Positions 5,305 to 33,870 of a stretch of 33,870 bases of DNA are shown piece by piece. This DNA is from a virus: positions 1-33,870 of the IMG/VR virus record IMGVR_UViG_3300022833_000029; one strand, given 5' to 3'. Position 1 is the stretch's first letter. Each line of letters begins with the position of its first letter. The notes below the pieces were generated by a model. It was given only the letters and a program-made list of their open reading frames with translations, had not been told where the DNA came from and searched no databases. Made by a program: the position numbers and the translations under genes.

Positions 5305-6558
5305 TTAGAATGGCAGTGCTGTTGATGTCATGGTTGGCTTTACAACAGGCATTTCATACGCCAGCGGATAGCCAAAGGCGTCGTTCTGGTGGTCGAGGCC
5401 GGTTGTCTTGTCAGGCTCGCCATTCTTGTCATATGGCTGCTGCTCAAGGCAACGCGCTGTCTCTGGGCATGTGTCAGGATTGACGAACAAGCGGCCCGAC
5501 TGAAAGCCCATGTTGACGGCCAGCACGCGGTCTTTGACGCGCGGGTTGCTTTGCCTTGCGCGGATCGTATAGCCCGCATTTCGCAACAGCCCGATGTCGG
5601 ATAATGAAGCGCCCTTGCTGCTGGCGTTCTTTCCGCTTGCATCCGGGTAGATTGTAATCGTGTGACCCTCGTATCGTGTCTTGAGCGTGTCAATCATTGA
5701 CGGGGTATCTACGCCGCCCTTGATTTCGTCAACGCAGTGCCAAACGTTTTCGCGCAGAACAAAAGCGCACGCGGCCATGTTGCCTACGTTGAAGTCCATC
5801 CCAAGGCGTATCGGCTCGCGGTCCCTGATAGTTTCGCTGCTGCGCTGTGTCTCGCGGTTATAGGACGTGTAAATGCTGCCCGATGTCAGGTTTGTGAACA
5901 TGCCCTCGATATATGCGTCAATCAGTTCAGCGGGGTACGTGGCGCGCAGGTTGTCAACGTAATCGTCGGGCAGCTTTGGGTTGCTGTAAGTCGGCGCTTG
6001 AAAGTATTCATAGCCCGGCGTTGGCTCTTTTGCCCAGCGTTCATAAACAAACCGAAAACCTTCGGGCGTTGTGTAAGCTGATACGCGGTTGAAAGGCCGC
6101 TTGATGCCTTCGGGCTTTTGCCGATTACGCGCGACGATCTGGTTCCATACCTTGCGGGCGTTGACTGCCTTTAGCGTGTCCAATTCGTCAACGTGCGCGC
6201 GGTAAGTTTCGTATCCGATAATGCGTTCGGGGTTGTCCATTGTGCGCAGGACAAAATCACCGAAGCGCGGCCAAGATGTGTAGACGATGTTTTCCGACTT
6301 GTTCCATTTGTGTGGCACGCCGATCTTTGTCAGTCGCGCGCAAAGCCTTGGGGCTGTAATAAGCCGCACAAGGTCGTAGGTTGGCGCATACATGCCGATC
6401 AGTGCTGTTGAACTGTGCGCGGCGTCACTGATTGCTGACCAGATCATCACTTCGGTTTTACCCGCCCCGAAACCCGCAACAAAAGCGGGGTGCTTTGCCG
6501 TTGACATTAAAAACCTCTCTTGCGGTTCAGTCAGCGTCAGGCGAATCGGGTTGCGCAC
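5305..6558 (-). CDS. terL: Terminase large subunit (packaging ATPase and nuclease)
   Basis: With the GTG start at 6558 the protein has 417 residues. Walker A is GFGAGKT (29-35), Walker B is HVDELD (acidic pair about 124-125), and the C-terminal nuclease shows RLGMDFNVG, IYPDASG and DHQNDAFGYPLAY acidic motifs. It pumps DNA into the prohead at the portal and cuts the concatemer. Start choice: GTG 6558 has an excellent GGGAGATTGAAC site and keeps the TEPQERFL helix that normally precedes Walker A. ATG 6507 also has a good GAGAGG site, while the long ATG at 6648 would overlap terS by over 120 bp. It overlaps the end of terS by about 30 bp. Confidence 0.92.
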   Translation of the reverse strand: MRNPIRLTLTEPQERFLMSTAKHPAFVAGFGAGKTEVMIWSAISDAAHSSTALIGMYAPTYDLVRLITAPRLCARLTKIGVPHKWNKSENIVYTSWPRFGDFVLRTMDNPERIIGYETYRAHVDELDTLKAVNARKVWNQIVARNRQKPEGIKRPFNRVSAYTTPEGFRFVYERWAKEPTPGYEYFQAPTYSNPKLPDDYVDNLRATYPAELIDAYIEGMFTNLTSGSIYTSYNRETQRSSETIRDREPIRLGMDFNVGNMAACAFVLRENVWHCVDEIKGGVDTPSMIDTLKTRYEGHTITIYPDASGKNASSKGASLSDIGLLRNAGYTIRARQSNPRVKDRVLAVNMGFQSGRLFVNPDTCPETARCLEQQPYDKNGEPDKTTGLDHQNDAFGYPLAYEMPVVKPTMTSTALPF

Positions 6559-6829
6559 GTTCAATCTCCCATCCGTCAAATAGTTCTGGAACCTTATCAA
6601 TCGGCACATCAACGGTTGCTTGGATTGGCTTTCCATATGCGCGGTCAAGTAATGAATTTGCGGCTGTGACGCGCGCGGGCTCGCTTTGTCCAGATGTTGC
6701 TATCTCGACCAGTACGGCCAAGGCTAGTTCGACGTGTTCCTTTGCCATTGCTGCAAGGTCACGTTTTGCGAGTGATGTTGCGCCGGGCTTTCGGCCTGAA
6801 TTTGCCCGCTTGCCTCCGTGTGTCGTCAT
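6527..6829 (-). CDS. terS: Terminase small subunit-like DNA-binding protein
   Basis: 100 residues. The N-terminus (GGKRANSGRKPGATSLAKR) and helix segment with a conserved A-R-V-T-A-A-N-S-L-L-D-R-A-Y-G-K-P ending are typical of the short phage proteins found directly upstream of terL and annotated as terminase small subunits. The basic N-terminus would bind DNA and the central helices oligomerise. The start at 6829 overlaps the stop of a possible 9-codon leader (ATGA). Its own upstream sequence (AAGTTTTTCAAG) is a poor ribosome binding site, so translation may be coupled to that leader. Confidence 0.75.
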   Translation of the reverse strand: MTTHGGKRANSGRKPGATSLAKRDLAAMAKEHVELALAVLVEIATSGQSEPARVTAANSLLDRAYGKPIQATVDVPIDKVPELFDGWEIERAQPDSPDAD

Positions 6830-6855
6830 CTTGAAAAACTTGCTTGTTTAGTCAT
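6826..6855 (-). CDS. Possible 9-codon leader ORF coupled to terS
   Basis: ATG at 6855 reads MTKQASFSR and stops with TGA inside the terS start (ATGA). The GGGAA loop of the upstream hairpin lies five bases before this ATG, in Shine-Dalgarno position. terS itself lacks a good site, so a ribosome loaded on the leader could reinitiate at terS. At this size it may be chance. Confidence 0.28.
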   Translation of the reverse strand: MTKQASFSR

Positions 6856-6856
6856 T

Positions 6857-6896
6857 AGGCTTCCCGCCTTTGTTAAATCGTTAAGGCATCCCGCCT
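6857..6896 (-). promoter_or_regulatory. Tandem GGGAU/GGGAA hairpin element, copy A, upstream of terS
   Basis: On the minus strand two short hairpins stand in a row. The first is AGGC-GGGAT-GCCT (6896-6884) and the second AGGC-GGGAA-GCCT (6869-6857), separated by a 14-nt linker containing ATTTAACAA. The same arrangement occurs upstream of the scaffold gene at 33796-33830. In that copy the second stem is CAGC/GCTG, so two pairs change on both sides while the loop is unchanged. This supports an RNA structure. It follows directly after a terminator, so it lies in the leader of the terS transcript if a promoter sits between them. A DNA-level repeat (activator or terminase site) is the alternative. 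Confidence 0.6.
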
Positions 6897-6904
6897 ATAG
6901 AAAC

Positions 6905-22820: not shown

Positions 22821-24205
22821 TGGATGATGTCCTCTGCGATCAAGTTGACGGTTGTGCCACTGTCTTTTGTGACAAAGGTGTAAGTCACACGGTCGCCTAT
22901 GGTTGTGGCGCTTGGTGTACCTACGATTGTGGGCAGGGTTAGGGACAAGGCAGATGCTAAGGTGTATTGAAACACTGTGTCGTTAATGTCTCCAGTAACA
23001 AACATAGAAGTTCCGTCGTTGCTAAAGGCTAACGCCTGTGGGCTTGCCTCTTGCGAAGAAACACTAAAGCTCTTGCTTGAGTAGGAAGCTGTGCTTACGT
23101 CAAACCCAGTTGATAAGGTGTATTGAAATACTGTTTTGTTGGAGCTTCCAACAACAAACATAGACGTTCCGTCAGTGTTAAAGCCTAACGACCTTGGGAC
23201 TGTCTCTTGCGAAGCAACACTAAAACTTTTGCTTGCATAGGACGCAGTACTTACATCAAAGCCGACTGATAGCGTGTATTGAAATACAGTATCGCTAGAT
23301 GTCCCTGTAACAAACATAGAAGTTCCGTCAGTGCTAAAGGCTAACGCCTGTGGGCTTGCCTCTTGCGAAGAAACACTAAAGCTCTTGCTTGCGTAAGATG
23401 CCGTAGATACATCAAAACCAGTGCTTAGGGTGTACTGAAATATGGTGTCGTTAACGAAACCAGCAACAAACATAGAAGTGCCGTCCGTGTTAAATGTTAA
23501 CGCCTGTGGACTGCTATCTTGCGAAGCAACACTAAAACTTTTGCTTGCGTAAGATGCAGTTGAGACATCAAAGCCGACTGATAGCGTGTACTGGTAAACT
23601 GTGTCGCTGCTAGCGCCTACAATAAACATAGACGTCCCGTCAGTGTTAAAGGCAACACCTGTTGGGATTGCCTCTTGCGAAGAAACACTAAAGCTCTTGC
23701 TTGCGTAAGATGCCTCCGTCAGATCAAAAACAGAACTTGCGTCAACAGCAGACACATAAGAGTACTGCCACTTAGCATCTGTAGGAACGCTTGCAAAACT
23801 TACTGTCGTGTCAGCGGTCAGTGCGCTTTGGTCAAAAAAGTTGTATGTTGCAACATCTAGAGAAGGTGTCGCGCCAGATACGTTTACAGGTTTGTGTGAT
23901 GCTAAAAACGCAGAAAGGTCGCCTGCAAGTTCTTGAGGCGTGCGAAATTCGCCGCCGTCCTCTGCCGCATTGGCGCGAATGTAATCGCCAGCCTTACCCG
24001 TCAGCGGAGGCAAGTCGCCAGCAAGTGCCGTGGCAAGCACATTATCAGCAACGTCTTGCGTGTAGGTTATCATAGTTTGCAATTCGGGGCCGTTTGTCAG
24101 CGTCAACCAATCCATGAAGTTGTCGACGTTGGTGTCAAAAGCCGCGTTTGCCTGTTCTTTTGCAGGTAGCGTGTCCGGGTATAGCGTAATTGTTGGGGTT
24201 GTCAT
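22817..24205 (-). CDS. Tail fibre / receptor-binding protein with five-blade propeller repeats
   Basis: 462 residues. Residues 1-159 are a mostly helical attachment region followed by beta strands. Residues 160-419 contain five repeats of exactly 52 residues (FDVSTASYASKSFSV then ALAFSTDGTSMFVTG then DTVFQYTLS) that look like blades of a beta-propeller. Residues 420-462 form a short beta-rich tip. Repeats differ mostly in the middle loop (GASSDT, GFVNDT, GTSSDT, GSSNKT, GDINDT), which would be the exposed face. It is probably the receptor-binding fibre. It overlaps both neighbours by four bases. Confidence 0.75.
   Translation of the reverse strand: MTTPTITLYPDTLPAKEQANAAFDTNVDNFMDWLTLTNGPELQTMITYTQDVADNVLATALAGDLPPLTGKAGDYIRANAAEDGGEFRTPQELAGDLSAFLASHKPVNVSGATPSLDVATYNFFDQSALTADTTVSFASVPTDAKWQYSYVSAVDASSVFDLTEASYASKSFSVSSQEAIPTGVAFNTDGTSMFIVGASSDTVYQYTLSVGFDVSTASYASKSFSVASQDSSPQALTFNTDGTSMFVAGFVNDTIFQYTLSTGFDVSTASYASKSFSVSSQEASPQALAFSTDGTSMFVTGTSSDTVFQYTLSVGFDVSTASYASKSFSVASQETVPRSLGFNTDGTSMFVVGSSNKTVFQYTLSTGFDVSTASYSSKSFSVSSQEASPQALAFSNDGTSMFVTGDINDTVFQYTLASALSLTLPTIVGTPSATTIGDRVTYTFVTKDSGTTVNLIAEDIIQ
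22949..23728 (-). repeat. Five 156-bp tandem repeats in the fibre gene
   Basis: Each unit encodes 52 residues. At the DNA level units 1, 3 and 5 share the plus-strand string GAAGAAACACTAAAGCTCTT, while units 2 and 4 share GAAGCAACACTAAAACTTTT. A near-identical block of about 60 bp recurs at 23021 and 23333, 312 bp apart. Two-blade duplications explain this better than single-blade steps. Confidence 0.92.
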
Positions 24206-33082: not shown

Positions 33083-33790
33083 CTAGTCTTTGACTGTGCC
33101 GCCTGATTTTGCATGTGTTGCACGCTCGTATTGTGACATTGCGTCAAAAGCCGCGCGCGTGACTGTCGGTTTGTCAGGCGTCCCGCCCTGTGATCCGGCT
33201 GGCTTCCCGCCGCCGCCCTTGCCTGCATCCCGAACCGCGTATGATTTGGATGTCGCAAGTTCCTTCGCCAGATCGGCTAGGGTCGCATCTTGGTTGGGTC
33301 GTCCTGACTCAACCCAGATAGAGCCATCAGGCTTTACAACCTTTGATGTCCCATCCTCTGAAAACTGCAAGCGAGCCATAGCCGTGCTTGCGATGTCGTC
33401 AATTGCTTCTGCTATGAAGCCCGCCTTGGCCAGCTCCGCCTTCAACTCGGACGATGCGTTACGGCGCATCATCTTTGTGAGGCGTTCATCTTTGGCCTTG
33501 TCGCGAGTGTCATATTCGTTTTTCATCGCGTCCAGCTTGGCCTGCGCATCGTCTGCGCCCTTGCCGTTGCCCTTGGCCTTTTCGGTCAGGTCTGCGAACT
33601 TGGCGTCGATTTCATCCGGGCTGCCATATTTGGAATACGCCGCTGCATTACCGCGCTCTTTCGACAGCGCCGTTTTAAGCCCCGCCACGTCCTCTGGTGC
33701 AGCAAGCGCGCCTAGATCAAGGTGGCCGTCTGCCACGTGTGTCTGCAGCCATGTTGGCAGTGTTGTTGCGTCTGATACTTCGATTTTCAT
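33083..33790 (-). CDS. Scaffolding protein
   Basis: 235 residues, highly charged and mainly helical, with a central coiled-coil region (DAQAKLDAMKNEYDTRDKAK) and a flexible Gly/Pro/Lys-rich segment (GKGGGGKPAGSQGGTPDKP) before a helical, coat-binding-type C-terminus (YERATHAKSGGTVKD). No protease motif. Immediately upstream of the coat gene. Its translation start (ATG 33790) sits 10 bases after the GGGAA loop of a hairpin. The name rests on composition and position. Confidence 0.78.
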   Translation of the reverse strand: MKIEVSDATTLPTWLQTHVADGHLDLGALAAPEDVAGLKTALSKERGNAAAYSKYGSPDEIDAKFADLTEKAKGNGKGADDAQAKLDAMKNEYDTRDKAKDERLTKMMRRNASSELKAELAKAGFIAEAIDDIASTAMARLQFSEDGTSKVVKPDGSIWVESGRPNQDATLADLAKELATSKSYAVRDAGKGGGGKPAGSQGGTPDKPTVTRAAFDAMSQYERATHAKSGGTVKD

Positions 33791-33795
33791 TGGTT

Positions 33796-33830
33796 CAGCT
33801 TCCCGCTGTTAAACGCGCAGGCATCCCGCC
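33796..33830 (-). promoter_or_regulatory. Tandem GGGAU/GGGAA hairpin element, copy B, upstream of the scaffold gene
   Basis: First hairpin GGC-GGGAT-GCC (33830-33820), then a short linker with GTTTAAC, then CAGC-GGGAA-GCTG (33808-33796). Relative to copy A the loops are identical, while two stem pairs of the second hairpin have changed on both strands. Its second loop is in place to act as the scaffold gene's Shine-Dalgarno sequence. A protein or 16S rRNA could compete for that loop. Confidence 0.6.
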
Positions 33831-33835
33831 AACGC

Positions 33836-33857
33836 AAAAAGCCCCGCCGAGGCAGGG
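33836..33857 (-). terminator. Rho-independent terminator ahead of the scaffold operon
   Basis: The minus strand reads CCCTGC, loop CTCG, GCGGGG (6-bp stem with one G-U pair) and then CTTTTTG. It ends a transcript arriving from outside the window and insulates the scaffold operon from it. The same terminator-then-hairpins order is found before terS. Confidence 0.65.
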
Positions 33858-33870
33858 TTGTTTGGTTCGT

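Follow-up and report, generated by a model that had tools for sequence, protein, structure and literature searches.

The phage record analysed here (the window, 33,870 bases in all, with its head genes on the minus strand) carries two copies of a small tandem-hairpin structure, each lying on the minus strand directly 5' of a start codon, and the same structure recurs before the scaffolding protein genes of related phages. That it is a conserved cis-acting RNA element is close to certain. Our preferred interpretation, to which we assign a probability of roughly 0.45, is that the element acts in cis as an RNA operator where translation of the scaffold gene begins, with free scaffold protein as its likeliest ligand, so that the gene would be autoregulated.

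The head genes of the window run along the minus strand in the order terS (6829-6527), terL, portal and Mu F-like head protein (1851-769), followed, apparently across the ends of the record, by scaffold and major capsid protein (33059-31893). The terS gene (6527..6829, minus strand, 100 aa) is the first gene 3' of copy A and matches phrog_2538 (terminase small subunit) weakly, as well as phrog_15261. The scaffold gene (33083..33790, minus strand, 235 aa) matches phrog_206, head scaffolding protein, at 5e-15; it lies 3' of copy B and also holds an intragenic copy. The gene order suggests that the record is perhaps circularly permuted, with the head operon leaving at the left end (1-170) and resuming with scaffold at the right end (33700-33870).

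Copy A consists of hairpin 1 (AGGC-GGGAT-GCCT, 6884..6896, minus strand) and hairpin 2 (AGGC-GGGAA-GCCT, 6857..6869, minus strand), the latter one nucleotide 5' of an AUG. Both are covered by a match at 6853-6898 (43.7 bits) to R1, the covariance model used for genome searches. Copy B is formed by GGC-GGGAT-GCC (33820..33830, minus strand) and CAGC-GGGAA-GCTG (33796..33808, minus strand), with the scaffold AUG at 33790 and an R1 match at 33788-33833 (45.1 bits). Both loci are thus as the earlier note described them, including the paired change of the second stem from AGGC/GCCT to CAGC/GCTG. The tandem pattern matches twice in the window and in none of 100 shuffles of it. A lone GAC-GGGAC-GTC hairpin within a tail-region gene (23630-23646, minus strand) is not tandem and is probably a chance occurrence. 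Rfam 15 gave no matches above the gathering score in the window, and the Loktanella prophage copy gave chance matches only (E ≥ 1.7).

Comparison with relatives defines the unit as two, sometimes three, small tandem hairpins with G-N-G-A-N pentaloops, which are GNRA-like with one extra base. In 47 of 51 distinct scaffold elements the loops are spaced 18-24 nt apart and the last loop base lies 5-10 nt from the AUG. A terminator and a TTTAAC linker had initially been counted as parts of the element, and neither belongs to it. A T-run stands 5' of hairpin 1 in 29 of the 51, and TTTAAC is present in only 4, the other linkers being varied and A/C-rich.

The proximity of copy A to a start codon also held, the AUG lying at 6855, but this AUG does not belong to terS, which starts at 6829. 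It opens a leader ORF of 9 codons (MTKQASFSR-stop, 6826..6855, minus strand) whose stop overlaps the terS start (ATGA). Leader ORFs with diverged peptides lie beside hairpin 2 in other records as well (L028, L042, L117, L067 and L116, with a longer overlap in L029), and the stop-start overlap with terS is kept in most of them. An AUG is therefore retained beside hairpin 2 even where terS begins further downstream, and this suggests that the step under control is translation initiation.

To remove selection on the RNA itself, loci of the roseophage and Rhodobacterales prophage family were gathered by scaffold protein alone. Two loop motifs lie within 75 nt 5' of the scaffold start in 84 of these 87 loci; the exceptions are one locus with a one-base deletion (L187) and two in which a 68-aa gene stands between element and scaffold (e.g. 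L006). Among 56 distinct elements 89.6% of cells pair, compared with 69.4% after shuffling, and the covariation score of 0.55 falls to 0.184 in shuffled controls and does not exceed 0.126 in slid ones. Double changes are found in eight of the ten pairs, while the two closing C-G pairs are invariant. The rule by which these 56 were chosen required short stems, and the scaffold-chosen set, free of that rule, is therefore the fairer test; there all 30 distinct elements form the second and third base pair of each hairpin. A pattern scan of IMG/VR found many phages with the element 5' of terS-like or scaffold genes, in which the loop stays the same but the stems vary freely (GTTC/GAAC, CTGG/CCAG, GGGG/CCCC). 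The element loop was matched 64 times, control loops 0-4 times. The strand of the element is fixed relative to the gene, the sense strand facing it. Chance is excluded as the origin of the element by the shuffles, by the control loop motifs and by the shuffle expectation for named phages given below.

Related genomes do not keep the primary sequence without paired changes, and copies do stand before other late operons; these were the two points on which the earlier note had staked its proposal. The covariation and the scaffold-chosen loci accordingly support an RNA element that shows paired changes, lies at the translation starts of late head genes and recurs in related genomes.

In six Rhodobacterales prophages (Loktanella, Roseibacterium, Maritimibacter, Brevirhabdus, Actibacterium and Leisingera) R1 locates the element at three shared places: 5' of terS, 5' of scaffold and within the scaffold gene. 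Intragenic copies score low with R1, though the Maritimibacter one was nonetheless seen. No convincing element was found elsewhere in these six host genomes. The same places recur in 21 viral records, with the addition of some methyltransferase genes. A search of 397 genomes from one Rhodobacterales family group placed copies in known prophages only, under strict filters and a short candidate list that may let weak copies escape. The terS genes that follow the element are of at least three unrelated types, which indicates that the element tracks operon position and not gene sequence.

The element is not confined to roseophages. Protein searches led to a second, distant scaffold family, in which C-GGGAN-G hairpins lie near -60 and -21, frequently with a third in the interval, and a separate AAGGAG Shine-Dalgarno sequence stands 3' of the hairpins. 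Tandem hairpins with GUGAN, GCGAN or GAGAN loops lie 5' of homologous scaffolds in named phages: the Pseudomonas phages YuA and Ab19, PAE1, Epa5, PaMx28, PaMx74, AAT-1, Mallos (Xanthomonas), Elanor, DLP4, Donnerlittchen, Bordetella MW2, Me-ZS1 (three hairpins) and Rhodobacter RcSimone-Hastad. A tandem pair is present in 12 of 17 distinct named-phage windows (0.014 expected from shuffles), and the stems are paired at 0.97 and 1.0 against 0.57 and 0.73 in shuffled sequence. Stem covariation can be read directly from CCCATG-GAGAT-CATGGG in Ab19 and CCCGTG-GAGAT-CACGGG in Epa5. Carriers infect alpha-, beta- and gammaproteobacterial hosts. The 28-46 kb region of YuA, the whole genome of Me-ZS1 and the 1-20 kb region of Mallos each contain a single tandem GNGAN pair, which lies 5' of scaffold, and for this reason scaffold is the common target. 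The homologous scaffolds of ply2008005c, PMBT14, Leszy and Manatee have no GNGAN element 5' of them, and that of Sonora has a single hairpin only; among coat-protein relatives, no element was found in P106B, X2_24, qsb1 and CGphi29. Enterobacteria phage 9g (E. coli) has two tandem hairpins with ACGG loops about 10-65 nt 5' of its scaffold start at 908, GTGGA-ACGG-TCCAC preceded by a longer one, and is possibly a case of the same architecture with another loop.

A third roseophage copy lies in the 3' part of the scaffold coding region. An exact GGCGGGAAGCC near 33200 had been put down to codon use, but it proved to be one arm of this third tandem copy, which is conserved at the nucleotide level. 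Hairpin 1 is GGC-GGGAA-GCC (33201..33211, minus strand; codons GGC GGG AAG CC.), within an R1 match to the whole intragenic copy at 33175-33214 (16.3 bits). Hairpin 2 is GGGC-GGGAC-GCCT (33176..33188, minus strand; codons GGC GGG ACG CC.). An alignment of 66 distinct scaffold proteins has 87 columns in which the residue is conserved, and in these the commonest codon covers a median of 68% of sequences. Exactly five of the 87 use a single codon in every sequence, and these are the codons of the intragenic element, GGC GGG AAG ... GGC GGG. The codon that follows them is A-N-G (Thr, Lys or Met), its variable base being the free loop base. The five invariant codons rule out codon usage as the source of the internal copy, which reflects a constraint at the RNA level. 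Scaffold residues 189-205, which hold this segment, are disordered in the AlphaFold model. In the second scaffold family a lone AGCGC-GGGAW-GCGCT hairpin occurs within the coding region at a homologous position, about +234 from the scaffold start (L434, L435, L438 and L439), possibly as an independent intragenic site.

Taken together, the position of the element, its adjacency to an AUG, the leader ORFs and the strand bias argue for translation initiation as the controlled step, and we think it probable on this sequence evidence that the element acts there. Two or three similar hairpins about 20 nt apart would suit a multivalent RNA-binding protein, which is predicted to read the tandem loops and to control, most likely repress, initiation at the AUG just 3' of them. 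Binding by a phage head protein, as the earlier note proposed, is plausible and is also our leading guess. The likeliest ligand would be the scaffolding protein when free and not built into procapsids, and feedback by free scaffold could then match scaffold synthesis to capsid assembly. In roseophages the element stands in addition at the head of the packaging operon, where it precedes terS, or a methyltransferase gene or leader ORF that comes before terS, and it is also present towards the 3' end of the scaffold coding sequence. With the operator at both scaffold and packaging genes, these would form one RNA regulon.

By blastp, all 16 element genomes examined share only the genes for terL, portal, head morphogenesis, scaffold, adaptor and tail terminator, and scaffold is the only gene that the element precedes across phage groups. 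In phage P22, as described decades ago, the scaffolding protein (gene 8) autoregulates post-transcriptionally, through feedback by free scaffold. Scaffold as the sole cross-group target, together with this precedent, makes scaffold as its own repressor the best single guess, although its identity as the ligand is put forward tentatively. P22 shares the late head-operon order portal, scaffold, coat, but no GNRAN hairpin precedes its gene 8, and we know of no defined RNA site for its autoregulation. Net charge and alignment of the scaffolds revealed no RNA-binding motif exclusive to those that bear the element, and a PDB fold search with the AF2 model of scaffold found no match. This lack of an RNA-binding signature and the lack of the hairpin in P22 count against scaffold as the ligand, as do two further observations. 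Some homologous scaffolds, those of CGphi29 and qsb1 among them, are without a GNGAN element, and an HK97-like mosaic phage (G028) has one good element (L279, G028:C1:35826-35871, minus strand, 40 bits) at the head of its packaging operon, whereas tblastn found no scaffold homologue in it; its head module is of a different type. A broader version of the idea, held with slightly more reserve, is that scaffolding proteins of this superfamily are sequence-specific RNA-binders which, while unassembled, would shut off their own translation through tandem GNGAN hairpins, and in roseophages that of the packaging operon as well, serving as a sensor of assembly state from Pseudomonas YuA-like phages to marine roseophages.

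The phage without a detectable scaffold would be accounted for if the same translational operator were read by another ligand, either a small phage protein that evolves fast or an RNA-binding protein conserved among the hosts; we regard this as possible but rather unlikely. A dedicated small regulator gene common to the element phages was sought by blastp among the 16 genomes and none was found, nor was any non-structural phage protein common to them, so that the candidates left are a fast-evolving protein and a factor of the host. Ten small proteins of the window showed no credible RNA-binding domain in their Pfam matches. A host regulator would have phage targets only, given that host chromosomes hold no convincing element, and the spread of the element over three proteobacterial classes also speaks against this reading. 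One host candidate, CsrA, was rejected: PF02599 is found in none of the six Rhodobacterales hosts, while named controls were positive. CsrA/RsmA sites do resemble the roseophage element: both have hairpins in tandem, with loops of GGA type and an invariant closing C-G pair, and in both one hairpin lies at the start site. They differ in carrying ANGGAN where the element has a GNGAN pentaloop; its loops are GGGAN, GUGAN, GCGAN and GAGAN, none with the ANGGA(N) core, and GUGAN and GCGAN lack GGA altogether.

The element could instead direct RNA processing or stability, with an endonuclease cutting the exposed loops and parting the scaffold and terS messages from other head-operon RNA. T4 RegB, which cuts GGAG loops, offers a parallel, and roseophage copies on both sides of scaffold, in the 5' leader and the 3' coding part, would free the coat message. 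We consider this improbable, as the 16 genomes share no nuclease gene by blastp and the fixed short distance to the AUG and the leader ORFs favour initiation.

A still less probable alternative is a ribosome-binding device that needs no ligand, in which the hairpin 2 loop is a weak Shine-Dalgarno sequence (GGGA) and hairpin 1 a standby site. The roseophage scaffold AUG has no other Shine-Dalgarno sequence, and its hairpin 2 loop pairs with the anti-Shine-Dalgarno at about -4.3 kcal, compared with a median of -6.2 for the coat gene. In the second scaffold family and the named phages a separate AGGAG follows the hairpins, so the suggestion that the loop is a Shine-Dalgarno sequence does not extend to relatives, and the loops are better seen as a recognition site. 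GUGAN and GCGAN are moreover poor Shine-Dalgarno sequences, and the intragenic copy is conserved at a distance from any start.

A GNRA-like pentaloop on a short stem also recalls lambda-type boxB (nut site), and the terminator-like T-runs 5' of 29 of the 51 elements would suit an antitermination site read by an N-like protein. This is very unlikely. There is no conserved boxA (TTTAAC in 4 of 51), the element follows the terminators instead of preceding them, the AUG distance is fixed, and tandem copies stand at late-gene translation starts. Any of A, U, C and G may fill the fifth loop position, whereas boxB requires a GNRNA pentaloop ending in A.

A DNA-level site (operator, sigma-54 promoter or packaging site), for which the YuA record offers a high-activity -24/-12 promoter annotated on a fragment overlapping the hairpins (NC_010116 38392-38570; L445/L454), is equally hard to credit, because stem bases change as complementary pairs, which recognition of double-stranded DNA does not need, strand is kept relative to the gene, and some copies, such as L174, lie directly behind the upstream coding region with no space for a promoter. 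Alignment by reading showed no fixed -24/-12 pair or conserved GG-N10-GC among the freely varying stems, and a sigma-54 promoter was rejected. The reporter activity of the YuA promoter fragment might partly stem from translational effects.

The interpretation as a scaffold-gene operator places the element beside the MS2/PP7-type coat operator and the T4 translational operators, which are likewise small hairpins at phage start codons, such as structural or replication proteins of phages recognise. Like these, it is a conserved, covarying hairpin structure in an initiation region, for which protein binding is predicted. It differs from them in belonging to dsDNA phages, in its tandem pentaloops and in being associated with several genes, in one of which a copy lies within the coding sequence. 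Searches of open-access papers found no description of the element. Translational operators as a kind are already known; what is new, to our knowledge, is this family, together with its range and the copy inside the scaffold gene.

The intragenic copy is a striking example of a coding sequence frozen at the codon level by an RNA element. Scaffold is needed in the correct ratio to coat and portal, and how dsDNA phages set this ratio is an old question. It becomes directly testable with a candidate site that is defined and covaries, in phages that are easy to grow (YuA, Ab19 and PAE1 on Pseudomonas aeruginosa PAO1). The element represents an RNA family without an Rfam entry that is present in many tailed phages, where it probably sets the amounts of scaffold and packaging protein.
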